This document shows positions 12,476 through 30,577 of a stretch of DNA of 34,660 nt, one piece after another. The stretch is from Paramagnetospirillum caucaseum. GTDB lineage: Bacteria; Pseudomonadota; Alphaproteobacteria; Rhodospirillales; Magnetospirillaceae. Where the stretch lies: positions 1 through 34,660 of the forward strand of contig NZ_AONQ01000047.1 of assembly GCF_000342045.1 (NCBI RefSeq), given 5' to 3'. The notes beneath the pieces are model-generated. The model was not told the origin of the DNA. It ran no database searches and saw nothing but the letters and a program-made list of their open reading frames with translations. The position numbers and the translations under genes are program-made. How positions within the stretch are numbered: position 1 is the first letter of the stretch; each line of letters begins with the position of its first letter.

Positions 12476-13762
12476 TCAGCCGAGGGCGGAGAGCAGGCTG
12501 GTGGCGCCGCCGGCCAGACCGCCGGTGGCCTTCGACCCGCCGCCGAGATAATCGAGCAGGCTGGAGCCGCGGCCCAGCAGCGAGCCCAGAACCGTCACCT
12601 GCGACGAGATGGCGCCCCGGCTTCCCAGATAGGGGCGGATGGCGTCGTCCATGCCCTTGGCCGCCTGGGCGACCAGGGATTGCACCGAGGCCGGGTCCTT
12701 GCCCAGGGCCTCGGCCAGGATGGACTGGTCGATGGACAGCGCGCCGTCCTTTTCCACCCCGATGCCGATCCCGGCCAGGGTCGAGAGGTCGCCGCCGGTG
12801 GGATACTCGGCCATGGCGGCGTCGCCGATGCGCTTGAACATGCCGGCGGCCAGATTGGCGTTCGCCGCCAGTTCGCCCTTGTCGCCGGTCATCTCGACGA
12901 TGGCCTGCTGCAGGCCGTTGAACGACGCCATCATCTTCCGGATGGTTTCGCTCAGGGTGGAACGCGGCACGCTGAGCGCGCCCGTCTCGCTGAACGCCGC
13001 CGTGGTGCCGAAGGCCACCGGCACGCCGGCGTTGGACGGCCAGACGAATTCGGTGCCGTCGATGCTGTAAAGGGCGTCGGCGGCCTCGCCGGTCAGGGTC
13101 AGCGGCGAGGTGTCGGGGCGCGACGGGTCGAAGTCCAGTTCGGCCAGTCCCGACAGGGCGAAGGCCTTGGCCGCGCCGGTGTCCTGGCCGCTGATCTCCA
13201 GTTCGAAGCCGCCGCCCGATTCCACCACCTTGGCGGTCAGGCCGATCCTGGAATCGTTGATGGACTGGGCGATGTCGTTGAGCGAGCCGCCGGCGATGAC
13301 GATCCCGGCGGGTTCGCCCAGGGCGGTGAAGGCTCCGGTCTCCCCATCCATCTCGCCCATCTGGACGGTCAGGGTTCCGGTGCCCAGCGACACCGAATCG
13401 GGGTCGCCGAACAGCGAGGTCACCAGGGTCTGGACGCCGGCCAGGCGGCTGACCTCCACCTCGACCGATCCGGCGCTGCCCGGGCTGGCGGCCTGGGTGG
13501 CCACCGCCTGCAAGTCGCCGTCCACCTGGGCGCCCAGGGTGGCGAGGCGGGTGTAGCCGAGCATGGCCGAACCGCTTTGCGTCGAGCCCAGCGACAGGGA
13601 ATAGGCCTCGTCGCGGCCCAGGCTGAGCGGGCTGGCCGCCGGGTTGGCGGCGGTCTGGGCGGTGGTGCCGTCGCCCTTCTGGCTGGGCGCGGCGTACTGC
13701 TTCAACAGGCCGGCGAGGGCGGTCGGCAGGGCGGAAACAGTGTTGGTGCTCATGGCCTTCAT
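12476..13762 (-). CDS. Divergent FliD-like flagellar hook-associated (cap) protein
   Basis: A 428-residue protein with FliD features. The segment VEVSRLAGVQTLVTSLFGDPDSVSLGTGTLTVQMG resembles the conserved FliD N-terminal region. It is followed by a flagellin-IN type motif, GGSLNDIAQSINDSRIGLTAKVVESGGGFELEISG. The C-terminal half has ETIRKMMASFNGLQQAIVEMTG and GIGIGVEKDGALSIDQSILAEAL, as in the FliD C-domain. FliD caps the growing filament. The usual N-terminal start motif (GLDVxxLV...) is replaced by LPTALAGLLKQYA and low-complexity sequence. ATGs at 13762 and 13753 are both possible. It is monocistronic, with a sigma-54 promoter upstream and a terminator after it. No other flagellar gene is nearby, so a paralogous cap is possible. 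Confidence 0.72.
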   Translation of the reverse strand: MKAMSTNTVSALPTALAGLLKQYAAPSQKGDGTTAQTAANPAASPLSLGRDEAYSLSLGSTQSGSAMLGYTRLATLGAQVDGDLQAVATQAASPGSAGSVEVEVSRLAGVQTLVTSLFGDPDSVSLGTGTLTVQMGEMDGETGAFTALGEPAGIVIAGGSLNDIAQSINDSRIGLTAKVVESGGGFELEISGQDTGAAKAFALSGLAELDFDPSRPDTSPLTLTGEAADALYSIDGTEFVWPSNAGVPVAFGTTAAFSETGALSVPRSTLSETIRKMMASFNGLQQAIVEMTGDKGELAANANLAAGMFKRIGDAAMAEYPTGGDLSTLAGIGIGVEKDGALSIDQSILAEALGKDPASVQSLVAQAAKGMDDAIRPYLGSRGAISSQVTVLGSLLGRGSSLLDYLGGGSKATGGLAGGATSLLSALG

Positions 13763-13882: not shown

Positions 13883-13900
13883 CCGGCAAACTCTGCCGGT
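13883..13900 (-). terminator. Hairpin after the PLP enzyme gene
   Basis: Directly after the stop codon the coding strand reads CCGGCA-GAGTT-TGCCGG, a perfect 6-bp stem with a 5-nt loop. No U-run follows, so it is only a probable terminator. Confidence 0.45.
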
Positions 13901-15465
13901 CAGGCCGCTTGCGTCAGGTGCCGCCAGTGGCGCAGCAGCATGTCCAGCTTGGCCAGCACCAGCTTGGCCTCGGCGATTTCCAGGTCGAGGAAGGCTTCCA
14001 CCGTGCGTCCGGCATGCATGGCCAGCCGGGCGCCGGACACCAGCCGGGCGCCGGCCGCCAGGCGCAGGCCCGAGAGGGTTTCGCCCACCATCACCGGCTG
14101 GCCGATATGGCAGGCCAGGGCGGCGAGGCGGCGGTCCCGCTCCCGCGCCGTGGAGGGCAGCAGGGCCGAGACATCGCGGTTGAGCCAGACGTGGAGGCGC
14201 CGCAGATCGTCCATGCCCAGCGGAGCCTTGGCCTTGGGCGGCGTGGCGGCGAAGGTCAGGATGGTGGCCAGCCCGTCCCACGACCCCGGCACGCCCCGCT
14301 CGGGACGCGGGCAGGGCAGCAGGCGCAGGCGGGGCGCCGCCCCGATGGCGGTGCGGATGGCTCCCAGGAAGGTTTCCAGGATGCGCCGCGCCTCGGCCGC
14401 CGGCACCGCGTGGAAGGCGGCCATCTCCCACAGCGCCGCCCACCAGCGCATCAGCAGGCCGATATTGGCGTCGCCGCCCATGGGCCGGCACCAGTTCTCC
14501 CAGGCATCGGGCCAGCAATGGCGCTCGGTATAGGCGTTGTAGCCTTCGGGCAGGGCGGCCTGGCCCAGCAGCACCCGTCCGCCGATGCAGGGCGGCACCA
14601 GCAGGGCGCCGGCGAAGGGCGGGCCGGTGAAGAATTTCGAGCCGGTGACGATCACCATGAAGCCGTGGCCCAGGTAGCGGGCGACGCTTTCTCGGGACAG
14701 CCGCAGCTGCGAGGCGTCGACCACCACGTCCAGGTGGCCGGCGAAACGCTGCGCCAGGGCGAAGGTGAACTCCACCCCCGGCGCCACCAGACCGGTCTTG
14801 GAGGTGTCGAGCAGGTGGAGCAGCACCCGGCGGCCCCTGGCCACCTCGCGCTCCACCAGGACCTCGGCGGCCCGGTCGATTTCGTCGGCCGGCAGGGGAT
14901 TGCCGGCTCCGTCGCGCACCTGGAGGATGGCCAGATCCATCCTGGCGGCGGTGGCCTCGTCCACCGGCCCGTCCACCGTGACGTGATGGCCCATGGCGGT
15001 GGTGGCGTTGTAATGGCGGCCCGAGGCTGCCTGCAGGACGTTGCTGGCGGTCTCCCGCGGCGCGATGACGATGCTGGTCAGCTTCCGGCGGTCGGCGGCG
15101 AGGGCCAGATGCAGGGCGTAGAACTCGGCGTCGGTGCCCGACGGCGTCAGGATGGCCTCGGTCCCCGGCGCCATGCCGCATTGGCGGGGCACCTCGCCGC
15201 GCACCTCTTCCATGGCGCGGGCGTATTCCTCGTCCAGCCGTCCGGCGTGGGCGGCGTCGGCCAGGCGGCGGCGCAATCCCTCCACATGGGCGAAGGCGCC
15301 GTCCGACACCGAGGTGGCGGTGGTCGAGGCGAAGGTGATGGCCCACGGGCGGGGGCGGGGCGAACAGCCGTAGCGGTTCAGGCCGCTTTCGCCATCGACC
15401 AGCAGGCGCTCGTCGCCGCCGGTGGTCAGCAGGGTGTCGGCCGGTTGAGAGAGATCCCAGGCCAT
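13900..15465 (-). CDS. PLP-dependent fold-type I enzyme, class V aminotransferase-like
   Basis: A 521-residue protein that looks like a PLP enzyme but that I cannot place in a named family. Evidence: TPSGTDAEFYAL (from 107) resembles the phosphate-binding turn, VVVDASQLRLS (247-257) has the Asp that pairs with the PLP nitrogen (D250), and VTGSKFFTGPPFAGALL carries the likely Schiff-base Lys277. The C-terminal part (about 310-520) is rich in Trp and Arg and not recognised. It starts 4 nt after the ATP-grasp gene stop, so the two are coupled, and it is third in the cluster with the hydrolase-decarboxylase fusion. It could be a desulfurase/lyase, an aminotransferase or a non-catalytic relative. 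Confidence 0.7.
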   Translation of the reverse strand: MAWDLSQPADTLLTTGGDERLLVDGESGLNRYGCSPRPRPWAITFASTTATSVSDGAFAHVEGLRRRLADAAHAGRLDEEYARAMEEVRGEVPRQCGMAPGTEAILTPSGTDAEFYALHLALAADRRKLTSIVIAPRETASNVLQAASGRHYNATTAMGHHVTVDGPVDEATAARMDLAILQVRDGAGNPLPADEIDRAAEVLVEREVARGRRVLLHLLDTSKTGLVAPGVEFTFALAQRFAGHLDVVVDASQLRLSRESVARYLGHGFMVIVTGSKFFTGPPFAGALLVPPCIGGRVLLGQAALPEGYNAYTERHCWPDAWENWCRPMGGDANIGLLMRWWAALWEMAAFHAVPAAEARRILETFLGAIRTAIGAAPRLRLLPCPRPERGVPGSWDGLATILTFAATPPKAKAPLGMDDLRRLHVWLNRDVSALLPSTARERDRRLAALACHIGQPVMVGETLSGLRLAAGARLVSGARLAMHAGRTVEAFLDLEIAEAKLVLAKLDMLLRHWRHLTQAA

Positions 15466-15469
15466 GGCC

Positions 15470-16702
15470 TCAGGCGCTCTTGGCCTGCTTGATCCGCCGC
15501 AGCATGTCCTGGAAGGCCTTGAAGATGCGGCGCATCTGCGGCGCCTTGTAGGGAAAGATGTCGGGCGGGTCCATGGCGTGGACGATCATGGCGGTATCGG
15601 CCTCGAACACCAGCAATTGGCCGTCCGGGGTCTCGGCGCAGTCCATGGCGAAATAGTCCAGCCCGATGCGTTCGGCCATGGCGGCGAAGGCCCCGGCGTG
15701 ACGGGCGGCGAAGTCCCGGTCGAAGGTGGCGAAGGCCTGGGCCTCCTCGGCGCGCTTCTCGGCGCTTTCGCGCATGTCGGCGTTGAGGTAGTGGATCATC
15801 CAGTGGCTGGACACCGCCATGTGGCAGACGAAGGGCTTGCCGTCGATCATGGCGATGCGGTACTTGCGGAACAGGCCGTCCGCGCCGCGATAATCCACGA
15901 AGCTGGACAGGTAATAGCCCTCGGCGGGTTGGGCGGCCAGATAGAGCGCGATGGTCGAGGGATCGTCCAGCTTGGCCAGCCCCTTGCCGGCGTGGGAATC
16001 CAGCGGCCGGGCGATGACCGGGAAGCTGCCGTCGGGCAGAAGGTCGGCCAGGGCCACCTCGCCCCGGCCCAGGCGGGTCAGGGTCTCGGGATCGACCCGG
16101 GTGGTGGCGGGGATGCGGACGCCCTTCGCCCCGGCCAGCAGGGTGCTGACCCCGTCGCGGGACAGTTGCAGCACCTTGCGCGGGTCGTTGAGTACCGGCT
16201 GGCAGGGCCACAGATCGGCGAAGGCGGCGATGCGTTCGAGAATTTCGCGGTTGGGCTCGGATTCCCCGACGATGACCATGGCCATGTCGTGGCCCGGCAC
16301 CCGTTCAGGCAGGTCCATGCCCGGCACCACGTACAGCGTGTCCAGGCGGATTCCCGACCCTTCCAGCAGGAACTGGATGGGCACGTTGGACATCAGGTTG
16401 CCCGGCGCGGCGAAGGCCAGCAGGCTGATTTCGGGCTCGGCATCGCCGTCGAAGGGATCGCGGTAGACCTGGTCGCGGGCCAGGGCGCGTTCCTGATAGG
16501 CCTGCCCGGCCTCTTCATGGCCCAGCAGGAAATGAATGGTGGCGAGGTCGAGCAGGGCGGCCGAATCCGTGGGATCGGCCTCGGCCCGCTTCAACAGTTC
16601 GATGGCGGGCGGCACCATGTTCTCGCCATGAAAGGCCATGGTGGTCAGCCGGGCCATCCCCATGGATTCGGGGGGCCAAGGTCTGTCCTGTCCTGATGTC
16701 AC
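15470..16702 (-). CDS. ATP-grasp domain protein with TPR-like N-terminus
   Basis: A 410-residue protein. Residues about 33-80 look like one or two TPR helices (IELLKRAEADPTDSAALLDLATIHFLLGHEEAGQAYQERAL). The C-terminal half has ATP-grasp marks: FPVIARPLDSHAGKGLAKL (227-245) for the first ATP-binding lysines and glycine loop, YYLSSFVDY, and DYFAMDCAETPDGQLLVFEADTAMIVH (349-375) with the metal-binding acidic residues. Such enzymes join a carboxylate to an amine or thiol via acyl phosphate. The start is taken as GTG at 16702, 5 nt after GAGGAA; an in-frame ATG at 16732 lacks such a site. It lies between the hydrolase-decarboxylase fusion (49 nt upstream) and the PLP enzyme (4 nt). The substrate is unknown. 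Confidence 0.75.
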   Translation of the reverse strand: MTSGQDRPWPPESMGMARLTTMAFHGENMVPPAIELLKRAEADPTDSAALLDLATIHFLLGHEEAGQAYQERALARDQVYRDPFDGDAEPEISLLAFAAPGNLMSNVPIQFLLEGSGIRLDTLYVVPGMDLPERVPGHDMAMVIVGESEPNREILERIAAFADLWPCQPVLNDPRKVLQLSRDGVSTLLAGAKGVRIPATTRVDPETLTRLGRGEVALADLLPDGSFPVIARPLDSHAGKGLAKLDDPSTIALYLAAQPAEGYYLSSFVDYRGADGLFRKYRIAMIDGKPFVCHMAVSSHWMIHYLNADMRESAEKRAEEAQAFATFDRDFAARHAGAFAAMAERIGLDYFAMDCAETPDGQLLVFEADTAMIVHAMDPPDIFPYKAPQMRRIFKAFQDMLRRIKQAKSA

Positions 16703-16751
16703 GGCGCTTCCTCGGGCTATGGGACGCCCCACACTATCCCGAAATGGTTAA

Positions 16752-18914
16752 TCATTGCTTCGTTCCCACGCTCAGGATCGTGTCGACCATGCGGTCGACG
16801 TCGGCCTCGCGGGTGCGGTGGTTGACGATGGCGGCGCGGATGGCCAGCCGCCCGCCGACGGTGGTGGTGGAAGGCGCCGCGATGCCCGCTTCGTGCAGGT
16901 CGGCGGCGATGCGGGCGGAATCCTCGCCCGGACGGTGGAAGCAGACGATGTTGAGCGCCACCGGCGCCAGCAGTTCCAGGTCCGGCTCGGCCTCGACGCG
17001 GGCGGCGAGGTGGCGGGCCACCCGGCAGGTCCGCGCCATGGCGGCGCCCAGGGCGTCCATACCGTGGGCCTTCAGCGTCACCCAGGTCTTCAGCGCCCGG
17101 AAGCCGCGCGACAGGTCGGGACCGTAATCGCAGGGCCAGGGCGAGCCGGCGGCCAGCCCCCGCGTCTCGCGCCGCAGATAGGCGGCGGGTGAGGCGAAGG
17201 CGGTCCGGTGGGCTTCGCCGTCGCGGACCAGCAGATAGCCCGCGTCATAGGGCACCTGCCCCCATTTGTGAAAGTCGAAGGCCAGTGAATCCGAACGCTC
17301 GATGCCGGCCAGCAGCGGCGCCAGTTCGGGCGACATCATGCCCAGCGCCCCGAAGGCGCCGTCCACATGGAACCACAGCCCTTCGGCCGCCGCCACGTCG
17401 GCCAGGGCGGTCAGGTCGTCGACGGCGCCCACGTCCACGGTGCCGGCGCTGCCGATCACCATGAAGGGGCGGCATCCGGCGGCGCGGTCGGCGGCGATGG
17501 CCTGCCTCAGCGCCTCGAGGTCCATGCGGTGGCCGGCATCGGTGGCGATCAGGCGCAGAGAATCCGAACCCAGCCCGCTCATGGCGAAGGCCTGGGGAAG
17601 GCAACCGTGGGCGGCGGCGGAGGCGTAGGCGACCAGCCTTTCGCCACCGCTCACCCCGCCGCGACGGCTGCCGGCGCCCAGCGCCGTGGTGCGCGCCACC
17701 AGCACCGCCAGGAAATTGGCCATGGAGGTGCCGGTGAGGAACAGGCCGCTGGCCCCTTGGGGATAGCCGAACAGGGGGCGCATCCAGCGCAGGATCTGGC
17801 GTTCCACCTCCATGGGGGCGTGGTCGCGGCCGCCCAGATTGGCATTGAGCCCGCCGGCCAGCATCTCGGCCAGCATGCCTTCCGCCGTGCCGCCGCCGTG
17901 CACCCAGCCCATGAAGCCGGGATGGACATTGCCGGGGCCATAGGGCTCGACCAGGGCGCGGAACTCGGCGTCGATGGCGGCAAGGTCCTGGCCGGAGCGG
18001 GGCGGAGCGGCGTCGAAGGCGGCGCGCGTCCCGGCGGGCATGGGGCGCCAGACCGGGCGGCGGCGCAGGTCGCGCAGGAAGTCTATGCTTTCGTCCAGCA
18101 TGCGGTGGGCCTGGGCGCGGAACGCCTCCCAGTCGGCGGGGTCGAGGCCGGCGTCGAGAGCGTCGAGGATGGCGGCCAGGGTGGCCTCGGGGTGCTCGGC
18201 CATCATCAGGTGCCCGGCCCGTTCCAGGGTGATGGCGCGGCCCCGCTTCAGACGGCTGGCCAGGGTGCGGCCGGATTCGGGTGGCGCCATGCGGTCCTGC
18301 CCGCCGACGATCACCGCCGCCGGGCAGGCGATGGCATCCGCCGCCGCCTCGCCCCGGTCATAGGCGTTGCAGGCGGCCAGATCGGCATGCAGCACGCCGG
18401 GCGCGGCGGCCGACAGGGCGGCGGCGGTCCCGGCGACCAGGGCGGCGGCGGGCGGCGGGTCCTTGGACAGCCCCCACTTGGCGATCAGGGCGGCGGCGGC
18501 GGGCGGATCGGCCAGCGCCATGTCCAGCAGCGCCTGATTGACCGGCATGGCGGCGGCGGCGCCCAGCAGGACGAGGGAGGTGACCTTGGCGGGATGGCGG
18601 GCGGCGCAATCCAGCGCCGCCAGGGCGCCCATGGAATGGCCGGCCAGGGCGGCCCGCTCCACCCCGGCGGCGCCGAGGAAGTCGGCCAACCAGCCGGCCA
18701 TGGCGGCGATGCTTTCCAGGGCCGGTCCCTCGGACGCGCCGTGGCCGGGCAGGTCGGGAACCAGGACGCGGAAGCCGCGCGCGGCGATGCCTGCGGCGAT
18801 GGAATCCCAGGTCCGGTGGCTGCCGCCGGCGCCGTGCGCCAGCACCACCGCCGGGTCCGTCGCTGCGCCGAAGGTGGCGGCAAAGATCCGTCTGCCCTGC
18901 ACCGTGATGTCCAT
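16752..18914 (-). CDS. Alpha/beta-hydrolase fused to group II PLP decarboxylase
   Basis: A 720-residue two-enzyme fusion in one uninterrupted frame. Residues 1-250 are an alpha/beta-hydrolase with oxyanion HGAGG (27-31), nucleophile Ser94 in GHSMG, Asp207 in GGQD and His235 in AGH, so the triad is complete. Residues 255-720 are an aromatic-L-amino-acid-decarboxylase-like PLP enzyme: HPGFMGWVHGGG, DHAPMEVERQILRWM, AAAHGC (His436, stacking position), HVDGAFG (Asp518) and DFHKWG with PLP Lys550. It probably decarboxylates an amino acid (aromatic, Glu/Asp-like or other), while the hydrolase cleaves an ester or amide. The ATG follows GGAGG by 5 nt. First gene of a three-gene cluster with an ATP-grasp protein and a second PLP enzyme. 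Confidence 0.88.
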   Translation of the reverse strand: MDITVQGRRIFAATFGAATDPAVVLAHGAGGSHRTWDSIAAGIAARGFRVLVPDLPGHGASEGPALESIAAMAGWLADFLGAAGVERAALAGHSMGALAALDCAARHPAKVTSLVLLGAAAAMPVNQALLDMALADPPAAAALIAKWGLSKDPPPAAALVAGTAAALSAAAPGVLHADLAACNAYDRGEAAADAIACPAAVIVGGQDRMAPPESGRTLASRLKRGRAITLERAGHLMMAEHPEATLAAILDALDAGLDPADWEAFRAQAHRMLDESIDFLRDLRRRPVWRPMPAGTRAAFDAAPPRSGQDLAAIDAEFRALVEPYGPGNVHPGFMGWVHGGGTAEGMLAEMLAGGLNANLGGRDHAPMEVERQILRWMRPLFGYPQGASGLFLTGTSMANFLAVLVARTTALGAGSRRGGVSGGERLVAYASAAAHGCLPQAFAMSGLGSDSLRLIATDAGHRMDLEALRQAIAADRAAGCRPFMVIGSAGTVDVGAVDDLTALADVAAAEGLWFHVDGAFGALGMMSPELAPLLAGIERSDSLAFDFHKWGQVPYDAGYLLVRDGEAHRTAFASPAAYLRRETRGLAAGSPWPCDYGPDLSRGFRALKTWVTLKAHGMDALGAAMARTCRVARHLAARVEAEPDLELLAPVALNIVCFHRPGEDSARIAADLHEAGIAAPSTTTVGGRLAIRAAIVNHRTREADVDRMVDTILSVGTKQ

Positions 18915-27640: not shown

Positions 27641-28394
27641 CGCCATCGTTTGCGGCGCTTCGCGCGGCCTGGGCCGCGCCTGCGCCGAATCCCTGGCCCG
27701 CGAGGGCGTCAACCTGGTGATGGCGGCGCGCCGTCCCGAGGTGCTGGAGCAGGCGGCCAGGGAAATCCGGGCCGCCACCGGCGCCGCCGTCAAGACCGCT
27801 CCGGTGGACGTCACCACCCCCGAGGGGCGCGGCGTGCTGTTGTCCCTGCTGCCCGATCCCGACATCCTGGTGACCAATGCCGGCGGCCCGCCGCCCGGCG
27901 ATTTCCGCGACTGGGACCGCGCCGCCTGGATCAAGGCGCTGGACGCCAACATGCTGACCCCCATCGAGCTGATCAAGGCCACGGTGGACGGCATGATCGC
28001 GCGCCGGTTCGGGCGCATCGTCAACATCACCTCGGCGGCGGTCAAGGCGCCCATCGACGTGCTGGGCCTGTCCAACGGGGCGCGGGCCGGACTGACCGGC
28101 TTCGTGGCCGGGTTGGCGCGGCAGGTGGCGCGCCATAACGTCACCATCAACAACCTGTTGCCCGGCCCCTTCGATACCGACCGCATCCGGACGGTGCTGG
28201 CGGGACAGGCCAAGGCCGAGGGCATCACGGTGGACGAGGCGGCGGCGCGGCGCAAGGCGGCCAATCCCTCGGGGCGCTTCGGCGATCCGGCCGAGTTCGG
28301 CGACGCCTGCGCCTTCCTGTGTTCGGCCCGCTCCGGCTACATCACCGGCCAGAACCTGCTGATCGACGGCGGGGCGTTCCCGGGGACGCTTTAG
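27615..28394 (+). CDS. SDR-family protein with altered active site
   Basis: A 259-residue classical-SDR-size protein. The cofactor motif GASRGLG (14-20), TNAGG (87-91), Asn112 and Ser140 are kept. However, the positions 13 and 17 after Ser140, normally Tyr and Lys, are Ser153 and Arg157 (LSNGARAG). A subfamily with this LSN..R pattern exists, so it is probably an inherited change and not a fresh mutation. NADP-linked reduction by another mechanism, or a non-catalytic role, are both possible. Starts 26 nt inside hdaA behind GGAGGACGAGG. Its TAG overlaps the TAA of the convergent glycosyltransferase. Confidence 0.85.
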   Translation: MDLGLKGRSAIVCGASRGLGRACAESLAREGVNLVMAARRPEVLEQAAREIRAATGAAVKTAPVDVTTPEGRGVLLSLLPDPDILVTNAGGPPPGDFRDWDRAAWIKALDANMLTPIELIKATVDGMIARRFGRIVNITSAAVKAPIDVLGLSNGARAGLTGFVAGLARQVARHNVTINNLLPGPFDTDRIRTVLAGQAKAEGITVDEAAARRKAANPSGRFGDPAEFGDACAFLCSARSGYITGQNLLIDGGAFPGTL

Positions 28395-30577
28395 GAACCC
28401 CGGGCCACCGATTCCAGGAAGGCGGCCAGCCCTTCCGCCGGGGCGGTGCTGTCGAAGATTCCAGGGCCGTTGGCCCGCATGGTGCGCGATATCTGTTCGC
28501 GGTAGCCCTTGTCGGTGCCCAGGCGGACGGCCAGGGCCACATAGGCCTCCTCGTCATGCGCCACCAGTTCGTCCAGCCCGGCGGCGCGCAGGATGCCGGC
28601 CGAGACGTGGCCGCGCAGGAAGCGGCCGGTGCCGGCGACGATGGGCGTGCCGCAGGCCAGGGCTTCCAGGGAGGTATAGCCGCCCGACCAGTCCAGGCTG
28701 TCCAGCGACACGTCGGCCGCCTGCACCATGCCCAGGAATTCCATAGAGGTGACCGCCGAATGGATGCGGATGAACTGTTCCGCCTCCAGGCCTTCGGCGG
28801 CGAAGGCCATGTCCATACGCTTGCGGAAGGTATCGGCGTACAGGCCGAAGCGGTCGATGAAGTCGATGCTGCAGGGACCCACCGCCTTGGCGATCCGGGC
28901 GAAGACGCGGTCCCGGCGGGGCAGCATCTTGTAGAGGCTCTGCGCACAGAAGAACAGCGGCCCCGCCCCGGCTGGGCGGGCCGGAGGCGGTACGGCGCCG
29001 TCCACCTTGGGGTGGGCGATGTTGAAGCCGATGCCGGGCAGGCGGACCAGCTTTTCCGTATAGTGCAGGTCGGCGCCCTCGGGTTCGATCAGTTCGCCGC
29101 TCAGGAAATAGTCGATGGAGGCCATGCCGGTGGTCACCGGATGGGCGAAGGCGGCGCACTGGACCGGGGCGAGGCGCAGCATGGCCAGACTGTCGTTGCC
29201 GGTATGGATGCCGATATCGGGATAGATCAGGACATCGAGATCGGCCTGCCGCACCATCTGGGCCTTGTCGGGATTGGGCCGGTTGGCGTCGATGAAATGC
29301 TCGACCCTGGCGGCCAACTGGTCGGTTTCACCGTCCCAGATGGCGCCGGTATGGAACACGAAGACCTCGAACCGGTCGCGGTCCAGGCCGGTCATCCATC
29401 CCGATATCAGCCGGCACACCACATGGGTGTTGAAGAATGCCGACAGGAAGCCCACCCGGATGCGCCCCTCGGCCGGGCGGCGGGCGAGGGGCTCGGCATG
29501 ACCGAGACAGGCCCTGGCGACCCTGGACTGGGCGCCGCGCAGCAGGGCATTGAGGTCGCGGTCATTTCCCGCCTGGTAGGCCAGGAAGAACACATCCATC
29601 TCCAGGATGCCGGCCTGCCGGGCTAGGTCGGCGGGCGGCAGCGCATGGATTTCCGCCGCCACGGCGCCGAGCTTTTCGGCATACCGCGTTCGCCAACTGG
29701 CCACCTGCTCTTCGGTCTCGTACTGGTTGGGGAGGATCACAGCGTTCCACCAGCGGGCTTCGATGCATCCGCCCTTTTCCAGGAAGGGGGCCGAGTCCAG
29801 GGGGCGGCCGGCGCGGGCCAGAAGCTTGCCGAGATTGAGGTTGATCTCGGGATGGCCGGGAAAGTGTTCCAGGAGAGCCCGGTATTGCTGCTCGGCTTCC
29901 TCCGACCGGCCGAGAATCCGCAAGGCCATGGCCCGGTTGTTGGCGGCGACGTAATCGGCGGGATTGAGGCGGAGCAGCCGTTCGAAGCATTCCAGGGCAT
30001 CCTCGCCCTTGCCGCAGGCGTAGTTGAGCAGGCCGAGGTCGTTGAGGGCCGGCGGGAAATTCGGCTGGGTCTCCAGTACGGCCCGGAAGGCCGCCAGGGC
30101 CCCCTCCATGTCGCCCTGGTCGCGGAGCGCCCGGCCGAGGAGGTGGCGGCTACCGAAACGGCCGGGCTCGCGCGCCAGGACGGAGTGCAGCGGGGCGGAG
30201 GCCTCGGCCGCCCGGCCGGTCTCGATCAGCAGGCGGGCGAGATTGTCGGCCGCATCGCTCAGGTCCGGGGCGAGGGTGAGGACCCGCTTGAAGGTTTTCT
30301 CGGCGTTGCCCGCCCGGCCGCTGGCGGCCTGGGCCGAGCCCAGGGCGTTCAGCGCCAGGGGATTTTCGCCGTGCTTGCGGATCAGGCGGTTAAGCACCTC
30401 GGCCGCCTCGGCCGGCTGGCCGCCCGACAGCAGCGCGATCCCCAGGTAATAGGCGGGCTCCGGGGCGTTGGGCGTTCTGGCCGCAAGGGTGCGGAACTGG
30501 CGGGCGGCCTCGTCCCATCGGCCATGCTGCAGGGCGCCGATTCCCTGGTTGAAGATGAACTGAAGGTCTGCGGACAT
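28391..30577 (-). CDS. TPR protein with SPINDLY/OGT-like (GT41) glycosyltransferase domain
   Basis: A 728-residue protein. Residues about 1-270 are seven or so TPR repeats, for example PAYYLGIALLSGGQPAEAAEVL and ALNDLGLLNYACGKGEDALECF. Residues about 370-728 are the GT41-type catalytic region: IRVGFLSAFFNTHVV, YPDIGIH, FAHPVTTGMASIDYFLSGE (His479), CAQSLYK (Lys550) and SLDWSGGYTSLEALACGTPIV for nucleotide-sugar binding. Such bacterial proteins are thought to glycosylate Ser/Thr on proteins, often flagellin. The target here is unknown. Start is the ATG at 30577; the open frame continuing to 31366 overlaps sixA and ppk and is not coding. It lies 35 nt after sixA. Confidence 0.87.
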   Translation of the reverse strand: MSADLQFIFNQGIGALQHGRWDEAARQFRTLAARTPNAPEPAYYLGIALLSGGQPAEAAEVLNRLIRKHGENPLALNALGSAQAASGRAGNAEKTFKRVLTLAPDLSDAADNLARLLIETGRAAEASAPLHSVLAREPGRFGSRHLLGRALRDQGDMEGALAAFRAVLETQPNFPPALNDLGLLNYACGKGEDALECFERLLRLNPADYVAANNRAMALRILGRSEEAEQQYRALLEHFPGHPEINLNLGKLLARAGRPLDSAPFLEKGGCIEARWWNAVILPNQYETEEQVASWRTRYAEKLGAVAAEIHALPPADLARQAGILEMDVFFLAYQAGNDRDLNALLRGAQSRVARACLGHAEPLARRPAEGRIRVGFLSAFFNTHVVCRLISGWMTGLDRDRFEVFVFHTGAIWDGETDQLAARVEHFIDANRPNPDKAQMVRQADLDVLIYPDIGIHTGNDSLAMLRLAPVQCAAFAHPVTTGMASIDYFLSGELIEPEGADLHYTEKLVRLPGIGFNIAHPKVDGAVPPPARPAGAGPLFFCAQSLYKMLPRRDRVFARIAKAVGPCSIDFIDRFGLYADTFRKRMDMAFAAEGLEAEQFIRIHSAVTSMEFLGMVQAADVSLDSLDWSGGYTSLEALACGTPIVAGTGRFLRGHVSAGILRAAGLDELVAHDEEAYVALAVRLGTDKGYREQISRTMRANGPGIFDSTAPAEGLAAFLESVARGS

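Follow-up and report, generated by a model that had tools for sequence, protein, structure and literature searches.

A conserved trio of decarboxylase, ATP-grasp-like and apparently unnamed PLP-type enzyme genes in Paramagnetospirillum caucaseum, a candidate amide-forming module

Introduction

The three-gene locus described here lies at positions 13900 to 18914 of a 34,660-nucleotide stretch of Paramagnetospirillum caucaseum DNA (contig NZ_AONQ01000047.1; this whole stretch is hereafter called the window) and encodes a hydrolase-decarboxylase fusion protein, an ATP-grasp ligase-like protein, and a second predicted pyridoxal phosphate (PLP) enzyme, here called PLP2. Several described systems resemble parts of it. 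Group II PLP decarboxylases (PF00282) include the DOPA, tyrosine, and tryptophan decarboxylases and the NCBIfam family DABADecarRhbB; ATP-grasp enzymes, among them the RimK-, R2K-, and synapsin-type ligases, work through an acyl phosphate; and fold-type I PLP enzymes are expected to carry SGT, Asp-x-x-Gln, and Ser-Lys motifs in that order. In Shewanella, the flagellin-modification operon sfmABCDE ends in an ATP-grasp gene, sfmE, and loss of the operon shifts flagellin mass; the words pyridoxal and decarboxylase are absent from the excerpted text (PMC3765264). In Caulobacter, according to an excerpt of PMC7591256, FlmG joins a tetratricopeptide repeat (TPR) domain, which binds flagellins, to a modifying enzyme, a glycosyltransferase.

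Here, we report that the decarboxylase, ATP-grasp, and PLP2 genes (the trio) are a conserved set travelling together, and we propose, with a probability of roughly 0.55, that they encode an amide-forming module. New in this work are trio loci beside flagellar genes and a CtrA half-site-like sequence conserved in the genus. No title on this gene set appeared among the literature matches listed (open-licence papers only), and the family libraries and PDB gave PLP2 no name, which agrees with an earlier sequence-only reading of the window that knew of no named pathway with these parts.

Results

All three open reading frames were confirmed on the minus strand of the window. The fusion protein P0001 (720 amino acids; 16752..18914) has an N-terminal alpha/beta-hydrolase domain (18147..18914; PF00561/PF12697 above cut-offs) and a C-terminal group II PLP decarboxylase domain (DC; 16752..18146; PF00282). 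The ATP-grasp ligase-like protein P0002 (15470..16702; 410 amino acids from the GTG start at 16702, which has AGGAAG 5' of it) follows after 49 nt, if that start is used, and has a degenerate TPR-like N terminus; PLP2 (P0003, 521 amino acids; 13900..15465), predicted by its motif pattern to be a fold-type I PLP enzyme, follows after another 4 nt. The sequence-only reading had described three same-strand genes with these gaps, as found here; of its parts list, the hydrolase and decarboxylase passed Pfam cut-offs, the ATP-grasp protein was recovered by weak matches, and the class-V-like label for PLP2 is plausible at scores below significance. Chance reading frames are untenable, because 8 further genomes of the genus carry orthologues, 62 to 91% identical, with gene order unchanged; a scan of genome contigs with PLP2 found two loci, 71% and 90% identical (Magnetospirillum and Phaeospirillum).

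PLP2 was sought in 60 relatives, a class sample of 385 genomes, a phylum sample of 398 genomes, and plasmid records. Twelve of the 60 relatives carried it, namely, 9 of the 17 genomes of the genus (counting that of the window), G019, G022, and G041. Decarboxylase and ATP-grasp genes adjoin PLP2 in all nine genomes of the genus, the G013 locus being divided between contigs; G019 has the trio with PLP2 on the opposite strand, G022 has it spread over two contigs that each end in the decarboxylase, and G041 has PLP2 and the decarboxylase with other ATP-grasp genes. The class sample held PLP2 in 6/385 genomes, with the trio in the window, G118, G136, and G417 and without a TPR-type ATP-grasp gene beside PLP2 in G382 and G391. 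PLP2 occurred in 25/398 genomes of the phylum sample, and 24 of these 25 loci were read (G614 was left out); the trio was complete at 16/24 and some ATP-grasp gene was present at 22/24. The sequence-only reading had named a lack of co-occurrence in other genomes as its refutation; the three genes do co-occur. Ligase types at PLP2 loci varied (Ddl-like, ATPgrasp_ST, and GARS/RimK/GSH-S-like): a D-Ala-D-Ala-ligase-like ATP-grasp gene adjoins PLP2 in G382, G712, and G754, ATPgrasp_ST is found with it in G603, and G466 and G522 combine decarboxylase and PLP2 with a different ATP-grasp protein; the G633 contig breaks off at PLP2. A class scan with the ATP-grasp profile (68/385) was inflated by matches under 30 bits, mostly to the TPR part, and its tally was not used.

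PLP2 was also held by 33 plasmid records, all named Rhizobium, Sinorhizobium, or Neorhizobium, and the trio was complete on the R. tumorigenes and R. rhododendri plasmids read. On S. medicae pSMED03 and R. jaguaris pRCCGE525a, PLP2 lies directly 3' of a nonribosomal peptide synthetase (NRPS) gene, and in R. leguminosarum Vaf10 it lies directly 3' of an AMP-binding gene, the NRPS being past insertion elements; the two NRPS ends scanned were A-PCP-TE. At the three Sinorhizobium/Rhizobium plasmid loci with PLP2 directly downstream of NRPS-type genes (L101, L105, and L127), the NRPS genes thus occupy the place of the ligase; L101 and L127 also have a phosphopantetheinyl transferase gene close by, and L101 has one for a SagB-type dehydrogenase. 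These loci are possible natural-product clusters.

The 29 trio loci collected show three co-directional gene orders, with G019 as an exception. Pairwise distances of the three proteins were correlated over the 29 loci (r, 0.92, 0.92, and 0.96; values reached by 0/2,000 permutations) and, in a set of 12 spread loci, at r values of 0.81 to 0.83 (reached by 0/5,000 permutations); shared species history also yields such correlations. In G136, decarboxylase and ATP-grasp protein are naturally fused into one protein of 890 amino acids (L110:11124-13796), 60.6% and 47.3% identical to the window's respective domains; this fusion backs the order of decarboxylation and then ligation that the sequence-only reading had supposed.

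The decarboxylase domain passed its Pfam cut-off (PF00282, 195.6 bits versus a cut-off of 27, in the same frame as the hydrolase), with DOPA decarboxylase 7xin as the best PDB match (E, 3.7e-64). The domain resembles group II decarboxylases in its whole-domain match, its HK lysine motif, and its conserved His, Asp, and Tyr. Across 14 aligned subfamily sequences, each at least 48% identical to the window's, N73, N103, G105-G106-R107, H180, D262, H293-K294, and Y323 were invariant (DC-domain numbering), and the PF00282 active-site residues K294 (HK motif), D262, H180, and Y323 were thus present in 14/14; we take these to be the Schiff-base Lys, the cofactor Asp and His, and the loop Tyr. Unlike the named families, it forms a subfamily of its own with an invariant N-x-N-x-G-G-R followed by (D/N)(H/Q) in 14/14, and its best NCBIfam match reached 174.8 bits versus a cut-off of 900. 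His83 was conserved in 12/14. Aligned with 7xin, Asn73 falls opposite Trp and His83 opposite Pro, and the NxN-x-GGR stretch stands opposite a more hydrophobic stretch whose last residues are Leu-Ser-Trp; a shift of one residue makes exact pairs ambiguous. These positions presumably line the substrate pocket, as in the pig enzyme. Since aromatic decarboxylases have a less polar pocket than the one predicted here, we consider a polar or acidic substrate likelier than an aromatic one.

P0002 was placed by weaker matches: R2K_3 (E, 0.11) and TPR_19 (E, 0.014) in Pfam and a RimK family (E, 0.017) in NCBIfam, so that no curated ATP-grasp cut-off in either library was reached (best E, 0.017 to 0.11); Synapsin_C scored 22.2 bits versus a cut-off of 22.5 in the homologue L103. 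A sequence search of PDB gave no convincing relative. R219-P220, D257-Y258, R266-K267-x-R269, and E354 (numbering of the alignment's first row) were invariant in 11/11 homologues, and we assume nucleotide- and Mg-binding-type roles for them from the family. P0002 resembles RimK/R2K/synapsin-type ligases in weak profile matches and putative ATP-grasp-type residues and differs from them in scoring under every curated cut-off shown and in its N terminus, a degenerate TPR; two longer homologues (L085 and L087) carry many TPRs there, and five others scanned (L103, L106, L108, L109, and L202) had no TPR match at E 0.05. Relatives of other build were seen as well: a TauD dioxygenase-TPR-ATP-grasp-like fusion of 767 amino acids (L215:8671-10974; PF02668, 71.1 bits), the R. 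tumorigenes protein L103:9962-11674 with a C-terminal extension of ~170 residues without a Pfam match (also in R. rhododendri L102), and a Cupriavidus homologue (L104:9926-11175) whose annotation shows two adjoining hypothetical proteins, as though it were split, with annotated glycosyltransferase genes nearby.

PLP2 passed no Pfam or NCBIfam cut-off (Aminotran_5 E, 0.23; NifS E, 0.11), P0003 scoring 10.8 bits against PF00266, whose class-V aminotransferase cut-off is 21.5, so that we did not place it in that family. Scans of 29 family members with both libraries (cut-offs being printed for P0003 only) gave PF00266 in 2/29 (best E, 0.076), NifS in 2/29 (best E, 0.096), and the cysteine-desulfurase family TIGR01977 in 1/29 (E, 0.0013); individual members also matched unrelated families, IRX15 scoring best (E, 0.0086). 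The class-V aminotransferase/cysteine desulfurase superfamily is matched in motif order (SGT, Asp-x-x-Gln, and Ser-Lys) and is departed from in the sub-cut-off scores, the TGSKF motif, and ~175 extra N-terminal residues in some members. Invariant in 29/29 homologues were S109-G-T111, S222-K-x-G225, D250, Q253, T274-G-S-K277-F, P282, F284, R340, G455, and R468; K277 (TGSKF) is the predicted cofactor lysine and D250 the predicted cofactor Asp, with SGT 109-111 and R340 as further conserved sites. PDB searches with the PLP2 sequence and profile gave no convincing relative, the top profile line being a cysteine desulfurase (E, 0.43) aligned at an Asp-Ala-Cys-Gln motif, and profile comparisons with a SerC-like protein, a MetY-like protein, and a histidine kinase (control) gave nothing convincing. 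By Pfam, NCBIfam, and PDB comparison, PLP2 is apparently an unnamed, unclassified family. The N-terminal extension occurs in G002 (L076:5637-7727), G008 (L078:12466-14556), G012 (L081:2882-4918), G041 (L086:8489-10690), and G391 (L107:8105-10285) and is absent from the window's clade; the extended homologue L086 had no Pfam match at E 0.1. An EF-hand-like gene, recognised by eye, adjoins PLP2 in G002 (L076:5001-5624) and G012 (L081:2298-2720) and was not seen there in the window.

The hydrolase domain is well defined (PF00561, 91.1 bits versus a cut-off of 25.8). Ser94, Asp207, and His235, presumably its catalytic triad, sit in GHSMG, GGQDRM, and AGHLMM and were conserved in the 6/6 fused and 4/4 free copies aligned. 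The fusion is complete in the window's genome (G000), G005, G009, G010, and G016, and G012 and G013 carry it cut off at a contig end; it was seen solely in the Magnetospirillum clade. In G002 and G008, the decarboxylase is unfused and a hydrolase relative is located elsewhere, and such relatives are widespread among the relatives searched. The hydrolase is a late, lineage-specific addition to the decarboxylase in the window's clade, and we rejected it as a core part of the module. The cutting of an ester or amide, which the sequence-only reading had suggested, is a weak part of that reading, as the fusion was seen in this one clade and the hydrolase also stands unfused, as a gene of its own, elsewhere in the genus. 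In G008 and G014, the free relative overlaps a MetY-like gene recognised by eye (L112:6690-8821 and L114:6182-8292), a hint at the original role of the fused hydrolase.

The next gene downstream in the window, co-oriented and 137 nt from PLP2, encodes the flagellar hook-associated protein 2, FliD (12476..13762, minus strand; PF07195, 34.2 bits versus a cut-off of 25.4), the only FliD_C match at E 0.01 in its genome; we count it as an associated neighbour and not as part of the core. FliD adjoins PLP2 in 7/9 trio-bearing genomes of the genus. Five genomes of genus g304 (6.7 to 8.0 Mb), perhaps Bradyrhizobium, have the order FlgE-FlgK-FlgL-(241- to 259-amino-acid protein)-PLP2-ATP-grasp-decarboxylase, then FlbT (other strand) and flagellin; FlgE was named by reading, and in G417, the one genome run against Pfam, FlgK, flagellin, and FlbT passed cut-offs and FlgL was a sub-cut-off flagellin match. 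The excerpted text on Bradyrhizobium flagella (PMC6406911) does not contain the word decarboxylase. In G118, the stretch that separates PLP2 from the ATP-grasp gene holds flagellin, FlbT, and FlaF on the opposite strand; this flagellin is the genome's sole Flagellin_N match, and a flagellin C-terminal piece stands at the contig start. The sequence-only reading had taken the locus to look self-contained, with unrelated flanks; the adjoining fliD in the clade and flagellar genes with the trio in two other lineages do not support this.

Flagellar markers were present at 13/29 trio loci, from three lineages, at 0/24 loci having the ATP-grasp gene alone, and at 1/15 PLP2 loci without a TPR-type ATP-grasp gene (G391, flagellin ~9 kb off), a tally to which we attach no probability because the loci are of unequal length and not independent and the markers are alphaproteobacterial. 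The idea that the TPR-ATP-grasp family is flagellar as such was rejected on the 0/24 count. In G002, the trio adjoins a gene that looks Crp/Fnr-like by eye (L076:10634-11329); in G008 and G011, such a gene is next to fliD instead (L224:5647-6342 and L227:5523-6245), a placement that may point to an older common locus.

Immediately 3' of the decarboxylase stop, a conserved block, TTAACCATTTCGGGATAGTGT (16731..16751, minus strand), contains the CtrA half-site-like TTAACCAT. A block starting TTAACC between decarboxylase and ATP-grasp genes was kept at 9/9 trio loci of the genus, and TTAACCAT itself at 6/9. The latter occurs once in the window, where 0.02 is expected (2/100 shuffles had one); no full TTAA-N7-TTAA site was found anywhere in the window. 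A 2012 study by Greene and colleagues is said, by its title, to concern the role of CtrA in Magnetospirillum motility. Excerpted texts give TTAACCAT as the Caulobacter crescentus CtrA half-site (PMC3692519) and list it as an ungapped variant of the CtrA site (PMC6180460).

Discussion

The observed basis of the proposed amide-forming module is co-occurrence, co-inheritance, fusions, and conserved catalytic-type residues. In the proposed route, the group II decarboxylase would convert an amino acid to an amine, as its family does; the ATP-grasp protein would activate a carboxylate as an acyl phosphate and couple it to that amine, a step suggested by the decarboxylase-ATP-grasp fusion and the gene coupling. 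PLP2 would make or edit an amino-acid partner, since it accompanies varied ATP-dependent ligases (several ATP-grasp types, or NRPS), and the hydrolase may serve to trim or proofread what is made. Support for amide formation is fair. The trio connects an apparently unnamed PLP enzyme family with ATP-dependent ligases in many proteobacteria and provides a few genes in which a new amide-forming pathway can be tested.

Several observations weigh against it. No ligase was recognised by eye beside PLP2 in G391 or in Rhizobium sp. CCGE532, nor beside PLP2 of Neorhizobium NCHU2750, which adjoins a D-aminotransferase and an aminopeptidase. On the R. tropici and R. jaguaris megaplasmids, PLP2 lies far from the ATP-grasp gene, and G073 and G412 have decarboxylase and ATP-grasp genes without PLP2. 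PLP2 was placed among PLP enzymes by motif pattern only: compared with the decarboxylase profile, its predicted lysine falls in the same region at a score that is not significant (probability, 0.7%). AlphaFold2 models from three sequences each were unusable for PLP2 (pLDDT, 39.5) and for the ATP-grasp protein (pLDDT, 33.3).

Where the product goes is a separate matter. That it ends on a flagellar filament protein in the window's clade is a testable idea that we put forward tentatively; a specific version, in which decarboxylase and PLP2 would supply an amine or unusual amino acid and the ATP-grasp protein would attach it to flagellin or to the cap protein FliD ahead of export, with CtrA in control, is more doubtful still. 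If the flagellar idea is true, swimming alphaproteobacteria would have a filament modification based on amino acids and not on sugars. Partial precedents exist by analogy. The sfm operon, as far as its excerpted description goes, resembles trio loci in having an ATP-grasp gene and differs from the window locus, where its PseI-like, reductase, and methyltransferase genes are not found (PMC3765264). FlmG, as excerpted, would be comparable to P0002 in joining a TPR part to an enzyme domain (PMC7591256); unlike that glycosyltransferase, P0002 is ATP-grasp-like with only a degenerate TPR, and no glycosyltransferase domain was found in it (Pfam up to E 1). This degeneracy and the five homologues with no TPR match weaken the analogy. 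Three points tell against a flagellar target: FliD of the window's type also occurs away from the trio (G002 and G008) and in trio-less genomes; 16/29 trio loci (G002, G008, G019, G136, G723, G481, G499, two Rhizobium plasmids, and seven small-genome loci) have no marker, the markers being alphaproteobacterial; and the link was noticed post hoc, its 13 loci coming from only three lineages.

The strongest rival, possible if rather unlikely in our view, is an exported free small molecule (a dipeptide-like amide, signal, chelator, or osmolyte) beside which flagellar neighbours are incidental. It draws on an ABC permease gene (PF00528) and an ATPase gene, the latter by eye, after PLP2 on the same strand in G723, on an MFS-like gene (by eye) 5' of the ATP-grasp-decarboxylase pair in G073, and on PLP2 without the trio after NRPS genes, whose scanned ends suit free peptides; the R. 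tumorigenes and R. rhododendri plasmid trios also lie away from flagellar markers. It leaves the flagellar placement in three lineages unexplained, and no transporter was seen as a constant trio neighbour or beside the trio in the window. We consider it improbable that the product is an amino-acid-derived amide decorating a cell-surface glycan, in some species a flagellar one. PLP2 and decarboxylase in G041 do stand amid polysaccharide-synthesis-like genes (epimerase, flippase, and deacetylase, by eye) with ATPgrasp_ST, a sugar-transfer-associated ATP-grasp type that is also beside PLP2 in G603, G391 has dTDP-rhamnose-type genes (by eye) near PLP2, and sfmE may serve as a precedent here too; directly beside the trio in the window, no glycan genes were recognised, and the glycosyltransferase-like-looking 241- to 259-amino-acid protein of the five g304 genomes had no Pfam match in the two copies scanned. 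Three separate housekeeping functions that are neighbours by chance, an idea favoured by the large families of decarboxylase and hydrolase and the spread of hydrolase relatives, were rejected as contradicted by co-occurrence at 29 loci in three co-directional orders, two different gene fusions, and correlated distances.

Elsewhere in the window (28391-30577), a TPR protein of 728 amino acids carries a glycosyltransferase family 41 domain (PF13844, 94 bits), an architecture comparable to that of TPR-glycosyltransferases, FlmG among them.

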